DNA from: a virus
Virus record (IMG/VR): IMGVR_UViG_3300028650_000008
Span: 1-35,671 of that record
Length of the DNA stretch: 35,671 bases
Direction: 5' to 3' (one strand)
Shown here: positions 1,363 to 16,870 of the stretch, piece after piece
How the letters are laid out: each line of letters opens with the position of its first letter
Position numbering within the stretch: the first letter of the stretch is position 1
Translations under genes and position numbers: made by a program
Notes under the pieces: generated by a model
Told to the model about the DNA's origin: nothing
Database searches by the model: none
The model's input: only the letters and a program-made list of their open reading frames with translations

Positions 1363-1456
1363 AAAGGGACAAATAAAATTCACCTGCCCCGTTTTTTGTC
1401 ATTCTGTCCCTTTATCTTTGTCATTCTGTCCCTTTGAATTGTCATTTTGTCCCTTT
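1363..1456. repeat. Iteron-like 22-bp direct repeats with one inverted half copy
   Basis: TTGTCATTCTGTCCCTTT occurs at 1396-1413 and 1418-1435, and with one change (C to T) at 1439-1456, giving spacings of 22 and 21 bp, about two helical turns. An inverted partial copy, AAAGGGACAA, is at 1363-1372. The helical phasing suggests a protein-binding array: replication iterons or a multi-site operator for the HTH gene that starts at 1340. The rest of the non-coding stretch 1457-1561 holds only a CG-alternating run near 1530 and no gene that I can see. Confidence 0.75.
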
Positions 1457-1561
1457 ATGTCCTCTGTAAGCTTTGGTATTCGTGGCCTCCAACACGCTTA
1501 AAACAAGGTAAAAACAAGAGAGCAAAAACGCGCGCGCGATAAAGACCCCAAATTTCTACAT

Positions 1562-13371: not shown

Positions 13372-13610
13372 TTGAATGGATAGATTTTACCCTCATTGAT
13401 CCAGACTACGGGGTGCCTGTTTTGGTTTGCTATTATCCTTCCGGTGAAGATCATTACCGGCATATTTGCATGGACACATTAAGATATGGCGAAGGAAAAA
13501 ATAAAGACCCTAACTTGGTTTATTGGGATAGTTCAGATTATGATCGGGTTTCGCACTGGGCAAGGATTAATTACCCTGGACAAAAGAAAATCCCGGCGGG
13601 AGAAATATAA
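13368..13610 (+). CDS. Small phage protein, DUF551-like ending (80 aa)
   Basis: The pattern PVLVCYYPSGEDHY near the start and YDRVSHWARINYP near the end resembles DUF551-type phage proteins of unknown role. Its last codons lie inside the first hairpin of the conserved RNA element that follows, so translation to the stop would disturb that hairpin. Confidence 0.6.
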   Translation: MIEWIDFTLIDPDYGVPVLVCYYPSGEDHYRHICMDTLRYGEGKNKDPNLVYWDSSDYDRVSHWARINYPGQKKIPAGEI

Positions 13611-13656
13611 AAAAACCAGCCGGGAGATGCCACAAGCAGTTTGGGTTTTGTGGCAT
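13591..13656 (+). ncRNA. Two-hairpin RNA element, copy 1
   Basis: Hairpin 1: TCCCGGC (13591-13597) with GCCGGGA (13619-13625). Hairpin 2: ATGCCACAA (13627-13635) with TTGTGGCAT (13648-13656), loop GCAGTTTGGGTT. Copy 2 at 15935 keeps both hairpins, the loop start GCAGTTTG and the linking CCAGCCGGGA. Stem 2 differs by compensatory changes (G-C to A-U and A-U to G-C). No T-run follows, so it is not a standard terminator. The following 13657-13794 shows no gene. Confidence 0.65.
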
Positions 13657-14011: not shown

Positions 14012-14295
14012 AAACAATAGCGAATTACAAACCACGAAAATTTATAGAAAATGAGCCAATCGCTTTTTTCCACTATTATGCAGACGGAGAAATTCAGTAT
14101 CAAGGACAAATACTTGAACTAACCAAAAACAAATCAGGGAAAGTAAATTTTTTCGATTGGATAGCTGGATTCACAATGGAGGAATACCACTGGGTAACAA
14201 GAAATTATTTTGATGATTGTGTATTTTTTGATTCTGATTTTCAAATGAATCAAGCGTATCACAAACATAAAGAAGAAAATAATGAACAGCGTTGA
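14008..14295 (+). CDS. Hypothetical aromatic-rich protein (95 aa)
   Basis: Rich in Phe, Tyr and Trp (AFFHYYADGEIQYQGQ, FFDWIAGF, YHWVTRNYFDD). It looks like a small beta-rich fold; no family recognised. It overlaps the recombinase gene by 14 bases, so the two are probably co-translated. Confidence 0.6.
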   Translation: MKTIANYKPRKFIENEPIAFFHYYADGEIQYQGQILELTKNKSGKVNFFDWIAGFTMEEYHWVTRNYFDDCVFFDSDFQMNQAYHKHKEENNEQR

Positions 14296-14833
14296 GGCCG
14301 TCAATAAATCCGATATAGAAGTCGTCCATAATCTGCTAAGGAGACGCTATAAGCCTATTTACGCCGATTGTTGGAAAATAGGGGTTAACATGAGTTTACG
14401 CATTAGTGACTTGTTGAAAATCAAATATAACGATCTGGATTTAAAAAAACGGTCATTAAAGTTGATCGATCAAAAAACCCAAAAACCCAATGAGGTACGC
14501 CTTAATTTAACCGCCCTGGAAGTCATCAACAAGCGCCGAAAACAATACCCCAATGATGTCTGGTTGTTCCAGAACCATAGCCGACGCTCAAACGATAAAC
14601 CGATTACAAGGGGACGTGTGGGGACGGTATTCAAGGAAGCCGGGGATATTCTGGGCTTGTCGATCAATACCCACAGTATGCGTAAATCGCGAGGAATGGC
14701 GATGTACGAGGCCGGTATCCCGGTAGAAACGATTGCCCGTGTGCTGAATCACTCTAATCCTATGCACACCAGGGTTTATCTTGGTATCACAAAAGAAAAG
14801 GTACTTCGCACCTATGATGACTTTGAACTGTAA
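14282..14833 (+). CDS. Short tyrosine recombinase, catalytic domain only (183 aa)
   Basis: The conserved catalytic set is visible: R40 (SLRISDLL), a lysine in the beta-hairpin (QKTQK, 64-68), H131-x2-R134 (THSMRKSRG), H157 (LNHSN) and nucleophile Y166 (TRVYLGI). There is no N-terminal core-binding or arm-binding domain; the size is that of FimB/FimE phase-switch recombinases (about 200 aa) rather than of a phage integrase (330-400 aa). Possible jobs are DNA inversion at the upstream 15-bp repeat, or dimer resolution. It overlaps both neighbours. Confidence 0.85.
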   Translation: MNSVEAVNKSDIEVVHNLLRRRYKPIYADCWKIGVNMSLRISDLLKIKYNDLDLKKRSLKLIDQKTQKPNEVRLNLTALEVINKRRKQYPNDVWLFQNHSRRSNDKPITRGRVGTVFKEAGDILGLSINTHSMRKSRGMAMYEAGIPVETIARVLNHSNPMHTRVYLGITKEKVLRTYDDFEL

Positions 14834-15493: not shown

Positions 15494-15624
15494 TATTTGA
15501 TATTTTTATAACCCTACTCGCCATAATTGGCGCAGTATTTATAGCCCTGCTTGTCTGGTTCTATTGGTTCATATATCGACAAGGTGCATTTTTAGTTGAG
15601 TGGGAAGATTATGATTCGGACTAG
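15490..15624 (+). CDS. 44-aa membrane peptide (GTG start)
   Basis: GTGA overlap with the preceding stop fixes the start. One membrane helix (IFITLLAIIGAVFIALLVWFYWF) is followed by a short acidic tail (EWEDYDSD). It overlaps the signal peptide of the following secreted protein gene in another frame, so this DNA encodes two hydrophobic segments. Confidence 0.6.
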   Translation: MIFDIFITLLAIIGAVFIALLVWFYWFIYRQGAFLVEWEDYDSD

Positions 15625-15919
15625 CATATTATTGATAACTTTGTTGTTTCCACTTCCCACCATGGCAATAACCGGAGTAGACTTCAACACCTTATCCTAT
15701 GACGAAAAAGGAATTTACATCATTGGCATTGATGACGGTATCGCTTTTATGGGAGGACATTGCGATACCAAGGTTTCAAAGAACTACGAACAAACCCTTA
15801 ACGCTGTTTTGAAATTCATGGAAAAACACCCAGATAAATGGAGTAAGAACATGGGCGATATTTACGCTGAGGCGGTGATTAATGCGTTTGATTGCGGTAA
15901 TCCCGGGAAGTCATTGTGA
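15611..15919 (+). CDS. Secreted Rap1a/Tai-like protein (102 aa)
   Basis: GGGAAG precedes the ATG at 15611. The signal peptide MIRTSILLITLLFPLPTMA would be cleaved before ITGVDF. The mature part has the layout of the Rap1a/Tai family: GIDDGIAFMGGHC, then a glutamine-containing helix, then FMEKHPDKW and a closing AEAVINAFDC with paired cysteines. Family members neutralise T6SS amidase effectors in some bacteria, but many have no known target. In a phage it could protect the infected host or modulate periplasmic amidases; that is inference. Confidence 0.6.
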   Translation: MIRTSILLITLLFPLPTMAITGVDFNTLSYDEKGIYIIGIDDGIAFMGGHCDTKVSKNYEQTLNAVLKFMEKHPDKWSKNMGDIYAEAVINAFDCGNPGKSL

Positions 15920-15934
15920 AAACTATTGAATAAA

Positions 15935-15999
15935 TCCCGGCTGGGAAATATGATGCAAAAACCAGCCGGGAAGTACCGCAAGCAGTTTGATTTTGCGGT
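15935..15999 (+). ncRNA. Two-hairpin RNA element, copy 2
   Basis: Hairpin 1: TCCCGGCTGG (15935-15944) with CCAGCCGGGA (15962-15971), 10 bp. Hairpin 2: ACCGCAA (15975-15981) with TTGCGGT (15993-15999), loop GCAGTTTGATT. It follows a stop codon by about 15 bases, as copy 1 follows (and overlaps) one. The remaining gap to 16190 has a TATAAT near 16120 that may be a promoter for the lipoprotein/RlpA unit, and no gene. Confidence 0.65.
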
Positions 16000-16190
16000 G
16001 AAACTATTTTACATGAATAATTAATAAAAAACATATCCACCCCAAAACCACCGCAATTTTCTTTATTAAATTTCATGGCCATGGCTAAGGTCAATTCAGC
16101 CAAACTTTACCAAAGTCACTATAATTAATTTTATTACCCTGCCGGTTTAGTGCCGACCAGGGATTGGTTTGTTTGCGGGGTGGGTTATCA

Positions 16191-16298
16191 ATGGAAACAG
16201 CGCAAAGCATTATCTGTATTTGTCTAGGAGCCGCTTGCCTCATATTTTTATGTTTGCTGGCAAGGCTTTGGTACTTGGTTTTCTATTTGGTTTTCTAA
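16191..16298 (+). CDS. 35-aa membrane peptide nested with lipoprotein gene
   Basis: GGGGTGGG precedes the ATG. The peptide is almost wholly hydrophobic (SIICICLGAACLIFLCLLARLW). Its second half overlaps the lipoprotein start in another frame, an arrangement reminiscent of overlapping Rz/Rz1 lysis genes, although it is much shorter than an i-spanin and has no periplasmic coiled coil. Confidence 0.5.
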   Translation: METAQSIICICLGAACLIFLCLLARLWYLVFYLVF

Positions 16299-16426
16299 GC
16301 GCCTGCACAATTATAAATCAACCGGATAGCGGACTGTCTTTTCGTGCGCGTATCGAAACGCTCAGTGAACCCACGCAGAATATTTACCAGACTTTCCCGG
16401 TGATAAGCCTGGAGCTACAAAACTAA
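16250..16426 (+). CDS. Small lipoprotein (58 aa)
   Basis: The N-terminus MFAGKALVLGFLFGFLSAC is a lipoprotein signal with lipobox LSAC and acylation at C19; the mature part of 40 residues (TIINQPDSGLSFRARIETL and beyond) has no clear fold. The next residue after Cys is Thr, so outer-membrane sorting is expected. Its stop codon lies two bases before the riboswitch. It could be an o-spanin-like or envelope protein working with the RlpA-like enzyme. Confidence 0.6.
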   Translation: MFAGKALVLGFLFGFLSACTIINQPDSGLSFRARIETLSEPTQNIYQTFPVISLELQN

Positions 16427-16427
16427 C

Positions 16428-16502
16428 GGCAAACATCTCTAAAGGGATGGACGCAAAAACTCTGGCCTAAAGGACTAAAAATCCTACGGTAGCAGGTTTG
16501 CC
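16428..16502 (+). promoter_or_regulatory. c-di-GMP-I (GEMM-I) riboswitch aptamer
   Basis: All landmark segments of the class are present in order: P1 5' strand GGCAAAC (16428-16434); small hairpin ATCTC-TAAA-GGGAT; GGACGCAAA; GGCCTAAA; hairpin GGA/TCC; TACGGTAGC; P1 3' strand GTTTGCC (16496-16502). The G at the position that selects c-di-GMP over cGAMP (first G of GGCAAAC by my alignment) is kept. It should sense the host second messenger that signals the biofilm state and controls the downstream gene at 16526. Confidence 0.93.
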
Positions 16503-16503
16503 A

Positions 16504-16521
16504 CTCACATCTATAGGTGAG
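16504..16521 (+). promoter_or_regulatory. Expression-platform hairpin covering the ribosome-binding site
   Basis: CTCAC (16504-16508) pairs with GTGAG (16517-16521), burying the AGGTGAG ribosome-binding site of the RlpA-like gene. The hairpin begins two bases after aptamer P1, so the riboswitch probably acts on translation. Whether ligand opens or closes it cannot be told by eye. Confidence 0.7.
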
Positions 16522-16525
16522 CGTC

Positions 16526-16870
16526 ATGAAAATAGTAATCATCCTGGTGATCCTTTTTGCCTTGATTGCAGGTAACTCCCATGCAGAAACAGGGTTAGCG
16601 TCATGGTACGGTCATGAGTCAGGAAACAGAACCGCGAACGGCGAAAAATGGAATCCACATGGGATGACTGCCGCAACATGGTTCTATCCTTTCAATACAC
16701 GGCTAAAAGTTACGTGCTTAAAAACCGGAAAATGCGTTACAGTTCGCGTAAATGACAGAGGCCCCAGCCGAAAACTGCGAAGGATAATTGATTTGAGCGA
16801 GGGCGCGGCTTCCAGGATCGGACTGTTAGATCGCGGCATTGGCCAGGTTAAAGTTGAGGTTGTCCGATAA
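16526..16870 (+). CDS. rlpA-like: RlpA-like double-psi beta-barrel protein (septal peptidoglycan enzyme type)
   Basis: A signal peptide (MKIVIILVILFALIAGNSHA) is followed directly by the RlpA barrel: GLASWYG, RTANGE, GMTAA, VTVRVNDRGP with catalytic D77, and IIDLSEGAASRIGLLDRGI. RlpA enzymes of this type cut denuded glycan strands (lytic transglycosylase) in the periplasm. There is no lipobox and no SPOR domain, unlike chromosomal RlpA. A phage copy could loosen the wall during lysis or infection. It is under the c-di-GMP riboswitch and overlaps the convergent gene by 23 bases. Confidence 0.85.
   Translation: MKIVIILVILFALIAGNSHAETGLASWYGHESGNRTANGEKWNPHGMTAATWFYPFNTRLKVTCLKTGKCVTVRVNDRGPSRKLRRIIDLSEGAASRIGLLDRGIGQVKVEVVR

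Follow-up and report, generated by a model that had tools for sequence, protein, structure and literature searches.

The locus and its virus

The window, by which we mean the whole 35,671-nt stretch of viral DNA analysed here (IMGVR_UViG_3300028650_000008), carries a small lipoprotein-like ORF, a c-di-GMP-I aptamer and the gene for an RlpA-like protein, in that order (Table 1). As a preliminary description of this locus had proposed, the aptamer core lies just past the stop codon of the lipoprotein-like ORF, between two ORFs: the stop (TAA, 16424–16426) is followed by one base and then by the core GGCAAAC, which begins at 16428. Family searches with the lipoprotein-like ORF, both as the 58-aa version and as a longer ORF, gave no match. 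The TATAAT that might serve as a −10 element lacks a good −35 and is absent from the promoter-like sites that were predicted.

Table 1. Features of the aptamer locus and of two aptamers in other viral records
Feature	Position	Strand	Remarks
TATAAT, possible −10 for the small module	16120–16125	+	from sequence
35-aa ORF with a TM-like stretch (by eye)	16191–16298	+	overlaps the lipoprotein-like ORF in another frame
Small lipoprotein-like ORF, 58 aa	16250–16426	+	LSAC lipobox by eye
c-di-GMP-I aptamer	16418–16505	+	Rfam RF01051, full model
Competing helix, 5' arm GGCAAAC	16428–16434	+	partner GUUUGCC, 16496–16502
GACGC, conserved aptamer strand	16450–16454	+	complement of GCGUC, 16521–16525, just 5' of the AUG
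SD hairpin CUCAC-N8-GUGAG	16504–16521	+	arms CUCAC 16504–16508 and GUGAG 16517–16521
Shine-Dalgarno-like AGGUGA	16515–16520	+	5 nt upstream of AUG 16526
RlpA-like protein, 114 aa	16526–16870	+	AUG 16526, stop 16868–16870
Aptamer of L251	L251:10088–10170		IMGVR_UViG_3300028025_000878
Aptamer of the sixth record (L364)	G079:14989–15073		64.6 bits

A second record of the same virus, IMGVR_UViG_3300028734_000030 (G001; 48,376 bases), aligns with window positions 1–31852 at 99.94%, and the segment 16169–16870 is identical in this second assembly (L002 in G001). Beyond the window start, G001 encodes a P22-type portal, a terminase and a Rep_3 plasmid-type initiator. The window itself holds a tyrosine recombinase (14282–14833), an exonuclease VIII-like gene, an M15 endolysin on the minus strand (345–788) and a 3,408-aa protein with an LPD3 domain. 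The RlpA gene is the end of a rightward gene block and lies away from the endolysin; the RlpA module is not part of the phage's own endolysin locus. No GenBank phage was near-identical to window positions 1–25000.

The three best plasmid matches to the Rep_3 initiator are from methanotrophs, at 47% identity or less, which gives a weak, sequence-based hint of a methanotroph host. This initiator (G001 45906–46700) occurs together with the short tyrosine recombinase of the window, a combination that might let the phage persist in plasmid form.

Three further observations concern the same genome. Just upstream of the RlpA module, 15611–15919 encodes a small protein, exported as judged by eye, whose match to Rap1a immunity proteins stays below the threshold (24.3 bits vs. 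a cut-off of 27.7). A double hairpin occurs in two copies that are 81% identical (13588–13653 and 15932–15998); one of its stems differs by paired changes, CCGCAA/TTGCGG in one copy and GCCACAA/TTGTGGC in the other, and the structure therefore seems to be kept. Finally, a 77-nt repeat (83% identity) is found at window 1443–1519 and at G001 45707–45782.

Identity and anatomy of the aptamer

Is the element a genuine member of the c-di-GMP-I class? When the whole window was compared to all Rfam families using cmscan, c-di-GMP-I (GEMM-I, RF01051) was the single match. It scored 71 bits (the gathering score is 35; E = 3.6e-12) and spanned model positions 1–87 of 87. The aptamer is real, and both its assignment to the GEMM-I class and its phage setting, as claimed earlier, were borne out. 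It is an ordinary representative of a known family, found in an unusual place and before an unusual target.

The bases of the ligand pocket were located by Vc2 numbering, in which we take G20, A47 and C92 to correspond to 16428, 16455 and 16501; the sequence has G, A and C at these positions. Ligand-contact roles for the three residues are described in part of PMC9049102. The P2 loop deviates: it reads UAAA, vs. the GAAA of the consensus (GNRA). The same UAAA loop is present in two other viral records above the RF01051 cut-off (L050 and L211).

By eye, we saw no P1 helix between the outer flanks. We did not take P1 as defining, since the Rfam model leaves the flanks unpaired and Cd1 lacks a detected P1. 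In the portion of PMC9262584 that treats these RNAs, Vc2 turns translation OFF and depends on P1, loss of which abolishes ligand binding; in Cd1, which binds, no P1 was detected. The preliminary description had credited the window copy with a perfect 7-bp P1. The complementary segments exist (Table 1), yet they join the G20–C22 strand to the C92–C93 strand, and the resulting helix is not the P1 of the ligand-bound aptamer. Its probability is approximately 0.35–0.40 in the ligand-free ensemble. The Rfam structure has no pairing between the two pocket strands, so this helix competes with the ligand-bound fold.

Compared to Vc2 and Cd1, the RF01051 members used for reference, the window copy has the same full covariance match, the same pocket bases and both P2 and P3. 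It differs from them in having the UAAA loop rather than GAAA, in lacking a visible P1, and in being located in a phage, inside an operon and before an rlpA-like gene.

The RlpA-like protein

The assignment of the downstream gene to the RlpA family held up well. Its product matches PF03330 (72 bits) and TIGR00413 (107.3 bits, above the cut-off of 82.15), and consists of an N-terminus that resembles a signal peptide (by eye) and one DPBB domain, the fold of which was predicted confidently (pLDDT 83.8). The entry 4avr was matched both by sequence (E = 6.1e-21) and by fold (4avr_A, E = 7.4e-11). The second-best match by both sequence and fold was 8kea, a DPBB domain from the baseplate hub of a cyanophage.

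Using the RlpA-like protein as the query, we found 87 relatives, at 80 bacterial and 7 viral loci. D77, which presumably occupies the catalytic Asp column of RlpA, is D in 87/87 of them. E40 is retained as well (E in 79/87). The His of the TAAH motif has a catalytic role; in the phage protein it is replaced by T51, with H present in 84/87 relatives. The Asp is consequential in this family, as E. coli RlpA is inactive for want of it (stated in part of PMC9712689). The phage product shares the DPBB domain and the catalytic Asp with the septal lytic transglycosylase RlpA of Pseudomonas aeruginosa; it differs from that protein in that no SPOR domain was found, no lipobox is evident by eye, the His is Thr, and the gene is phage-borne.

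The wall-cutting activity ascribed earlier to this protein thus stands on the retained catalytic Asp and is weakened by the change of the conserved His to Thr. Lytic transglycosylase activity is plausible from these residues but unproven. In a Gram-negative host, the protein would probably act in the periplasm, either binding peptidoglycan or modifying it.

Distribution of the aptamer-RlpA pair

A model of our own (R1), run at E up to 1, gave 0 matches to the aptamer at the RlpA loci (80 bacterial, 7 viral), many of which are shorter than 12 kb. R1 recovered 7/7 positive controls, all of them viral; two had been part of the R1 seed, one of which is identical to the window. Rfam likewise yielded no c-di-GMP-I match in 13 of the 80 bacterial loci. 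An aptamer-rlpA pairing in bacteria had been considered and was rejected on the 0 matches among these 80 loci.

In 50 related phage records, chosen from 97 loci and mostly longer contigs, we found neither the aptamer (0/50) nor RlpA (0/50); two of the records (G029 and G030) have a terminase identical to that of the window's virus and are fragments of that virus. From this twofold absence, the aptamer-RlpA pair looks like an accessory module gained by one virus. Among GenBank phages, blastn with the aptamer as the query found nothing at E up to 0.1. An RlpA relative is encoded in 65 GenBank phage records; 8 of these were scanned with 700-nt flanks, and R1 had no match in them. A different RNA, abiF (RF03085, 52 bits), was observed at L009:8638–8674, on a viral contig with an RlpA relative.

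The expression platform of the window

Only 99 nt separate the upstream stop from the AUG, and the sole terminator-like site found in this interval is on the opposite strand; control at the level of translation is thus the natural reading. Between the aptamer and the AUG, a hairpin covers the Shine-Dalgarno-like sequence, beginning one base after the pocket strand. In addition, the conserved aptamer strand GACGC is a candidate partner for the GCGUC immediately before the AUG, with a probability of 0.37–0.53 in ligand-free RNA (ViennaRNA, six segment lengths).

Does the predicted folding respond to the aptamer? The SD hairpin had a pair probability of 0.91–0.93 in the free RNA and of 0.93–0.997 with the aptamer fold imposed, and SD pairing showed no excess over shuffled controls. 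The cost of opening the segment from the SD to the AUG was 7.09 kcal/mol in both states, i.e., no change was predicted; the difference was equalled or beaten by 241/300 and 157/300 shuffled platforms in two controls. The mean unpairedness of the ribosome-binding site rose from 0.42 to 0.52 with the aptamer imposed, a shift matched by 145/300 and 51/300 shuffles. The hairpin that was said earlier to hide the ribosome-binding site is therefore present over the SD, but its operation as a ligand switch finds no counterpart in these numbers, and a hairpin-based mechanism for the window copy is not supported by the computation. On simple thermodynamics, a switch in the window copy is thus neither predicted nor excluded. 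The folding model has no terms for folding during transcription, for tertiary contacts or for ribosomes translating the upstream ORF.

c-di-GMP-I aptamers in other phages

At least 35 viral records besides the window's own carry RF01051 above the cut-off, one of them being G001, the second record of the same virus. The records were found by DNA patterns over viral contigs and by one protein search; they represent 28/28 and 5/6 of the scanned sets, plus those of L361 and L362, and the set, chosen by pattern and by eye, is no census. Several resemble Firmicute prophages or bacterial flanks, as judged by eye.

In five of these records (L251, L359, L360, L361 and L362), the aptamer, scoring 79 bits in L251 and 66.6 bits in the other four, stands at the head of a lysis cassette, directly before a 139-aa ORF. 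Behind the 139-aa ORF, all five have an ORF in which one TM-like stretch and a coiled coil are recognizable by eye. The next gene in L251 encodes a GTA_holin_3TM holin; in L359, the holin's place is taken by a phrog_6637 protein (function unknown), with 91% relatives in L360–L362. The endolysin then follows in 5/5 records. It is a Peptidase_M15_3 protein in L251 and a Phage_lysozyme protein in L359, and the endolysins of L360, L361 and L362 are 98% identical to the latter. L251 also encodes a P22 coat protein. A motif-based guess that the 139-aa ORF specifies an NlpC/P60-like enzyme was discarded: there was no Pfam match up to E = 10, and the structural model was weak (pLDDT 53), with no fold match at E below 1.

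A sixth record, G079, lacks the 139-aa ORF. Its aptamer (L364) lies directly before a 47–49% relative of the coiled-coil ORF, and its holin and M15 endolysin (85% and 75% identical to those of L251, respectively) are located approximately 11 kb further on. From this layout, the aptamer goes with the coiled-coil region, not with the endolysin, and the sixth record counts against a simple “lysis switch.”

The arrangement of the window, in which an upstream stop is followed by the aptamer, an SD hairpin and the AUG, recurs in these other phages, with the aptamer 2–5 nt past the upstream stop in L251, L359 and L364. In the free RNA, the start codon pairs with the pocket-C (C92) strand with a mean probability of 0.65 in L251, 0.65 in L359 and 0.96 in L364; this masking was equalled by 9/500, 2/500 and 13/500 shuffles, respectively. 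The corresponding value in the window was 0.01, a level reached by 121/500 shuffles. With the aptamer imposed, the cost of opening the ribosome-binding site fell from 9.9 to 4.2 kcal/mol in L251 (1/300 shuffles) and from 9.9 to 4.1 kcal/mol in L359 (3/300 shuffles), but only from 8.7 to 7.2 kcal/mol in L364 (101/300 shuffles), which is not significant. The shift in mean unpairedness was less marked (33/300, 53/300 and 43/300 shuffles for L251, L359 and L364). L251 and L359 have almost one platform in common, and so do L360–L362, which leaves two independent platform sequences. The platforms of L251, L359 and L364 are predicted by the folding model to be ON switches, in which c-di-GMP and the start codon would compete for the same C.

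Other arrangements were seen in passing. One viral record has two tandem c-di-GMP-I aptamers (L214, ca. 2275–2470; G013:221962–222149). In L253 and L369, which resemble Firmicute-type prophages by eye, c-di-GMP-I aptamers lie near HTH repressor-like ORFs; that of L253 is followed by a terminator-like hairpin (by eye). At the end of the Mu-like contig L367, a partial c-di-GMP-I-like sequence precedes a small MotB-like ORF (by eye); this record had no Rfam match.

Interpretation

The reading that we favor, with a probability of roughly 0.6, is that the window contains a functional c-di-GMP-I riboswitch in a polycistronic phage mRNA, tuning translation of the RlpA-like protein by host c-di-GMP. 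The covariance match, the pocket bases, the RlpA scores above their cut-offs and the DPBB fold, the retained Asp, and the phages with a like order all argue for it. Against it weigh the lack of a predicted change at the ribosome-binding site, the lack of start-codon masking in the window, the lack of a visible P1, and the absence of the aptamer from the RlpA loci, the GenBank RlpA records and the 50 related phage records that were scanned. We infer c-di-GMP binding, translational control and its direction. Mechanistically, c-di-GMP binding would free GACGC from GCGUC in front of the AUG. This release, together with the three platforms of related architecture predicted to be ON in other phages, leads us to guess, at little better than even odds, that the window switch is also ON. 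The interpretation given in the preliminary description is, as a whole, partly supported.

What other accounts could be given of the same data? The direction might be reversed: ligand binding would dock the SD hairpin against the pocket and turn RlpA off, as in Vc2, for which a translational OFF switch is on record (PMC9262584, in part). The hairpin, which starts at 16504, one base after C16502, does pair almost completely with the aptamer imposed. It is nearly as likely in the free RNA, though, and the other phage platforms are predicted to be ON, making an OFF switch somewhat unlikely in our estimation. A different possibility is that the aptamer folds and binds its ligand but now controls nothing, being a relic acquired along with the RlpA gene. 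Its occurrence in one virus only, its absence from the 50 related records and the insensitivity of the window's folding to the imposed aptamer would all fit such a history; we nevertheless regard it as unlikely, given that the core segments are intact in a compact phage genome, that the pair occurs in no bacterial locus among the 80 RlpA relatives, and that there is a parallel in other phages.

The remaining accounts carry far less weight. The RlpA-like protein could be a part of the virion rather than an enzyme acting in the periplasm, as its match to the baseplate hub domain of 8kea might intimate, but a free-standing protein of 114 aa with a start resembling a signal peptide, encoded away from the structural genes, is an improbable candidate for that role. 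We rate as slightly less probable still that the ligand is 3',3'-cGAMP or another dinucleotide instead of c-di-GMP. Sensors of cGAMP have an A at the position of G20, and the window has a G. A G20A mutant is named along with cGAMP in part of PMC6274999. What speaks for such a ligand is that the cGAMP sensors share the GEMM-I fold (PMC7266159, in part). A chance match to the covariance model has a negligible probability and is rejected by the score, the E value having been obtained over all families.

Placed beside other phage-borne riboswitches, the favored reading of a working switch before the RlpA gene has partial precedents. The c-di-GMP-I riboswitches cdi1_4 and cdi1_5 are carried by the Clostridium difficile prophages phiCD630-1 and phiCD630-2, where they precede antitoxin RNAs (PMC7699646, in part). 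They resemble the window copy in being prophage-carried members of the class; they differ in that they terminate transcription prematurely, before the antitoxin RNA of a toxin-antitoxin system, whereas the window has a wall protein under putative translational control. The methylophage Melnitz has a glutamine riboswitch with a tmRNA gene (PMC9004378, in part), likewise phage-carried but with another ligand and target. The main text of a review on orphan riboswitches does not contain the word “phage” (PMC7266159). Our literature search, which covered titles and the openings of abstracts and took in few subscription papers, found no case of a c-di-GMP riboswitch upstream of a wall or lysis gene in a phage. 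Prophage c-di-GMP riboswitches are thus known; their placement before wall or lysis genes is a new use as far as the literature was searched. The lysogeny choice of phiVP882 on surfaces depends on host c-di-GMP via an effector described by its authors as unknown (PMC11315295, in part). VP882 was considered as a carrier of such a riboswitch, but its record had no Rfam match at the gathering cut-offs and the candidate was rejected; the aptamer finding thus does not supply the VP882 effector.

The closest likeness to the window is in the lysis-cassette group (L251, L359, L360, L361, L362 and L364), in which an upstream stop, the aptamer, an SD hairpin, an AUG and an envelope-related ORF also follow one another. 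These loci are not homologous to the window, and masking of the start codon by the C92 strand is predicted there and not in the window. The parallel lends weight to the idea of host sensing. We tentatively suggest, short of believing it probable, that unrelated phages have independently put envelope-related genes (that of the RlpA-like wall protein in the window, those at the head of a lysis cassette in phages with a P22-type coat) under direct c-di-GMP sensing by RNA, such that whether the host cell is sessile or motile would set the timing or strength of the attack on the envelope; in the lysis-cassette group, the ligand-binding strand would mask the start codon until c-di-GMP takes that strand. 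The 11 kb between the aptamer of G079 and its holin and endolysin lowered our estimate of this wider proposal. Its interest lies in the recurrence in lysis-cassette phages and in the ease of a reporter test. If true, a c-di-GMP riboswitch upstream of wall or lysis genes would let a phage read the biofilm state with no protein involved, and some viruses may read a signal of host lifestyle before acting on the envelope.
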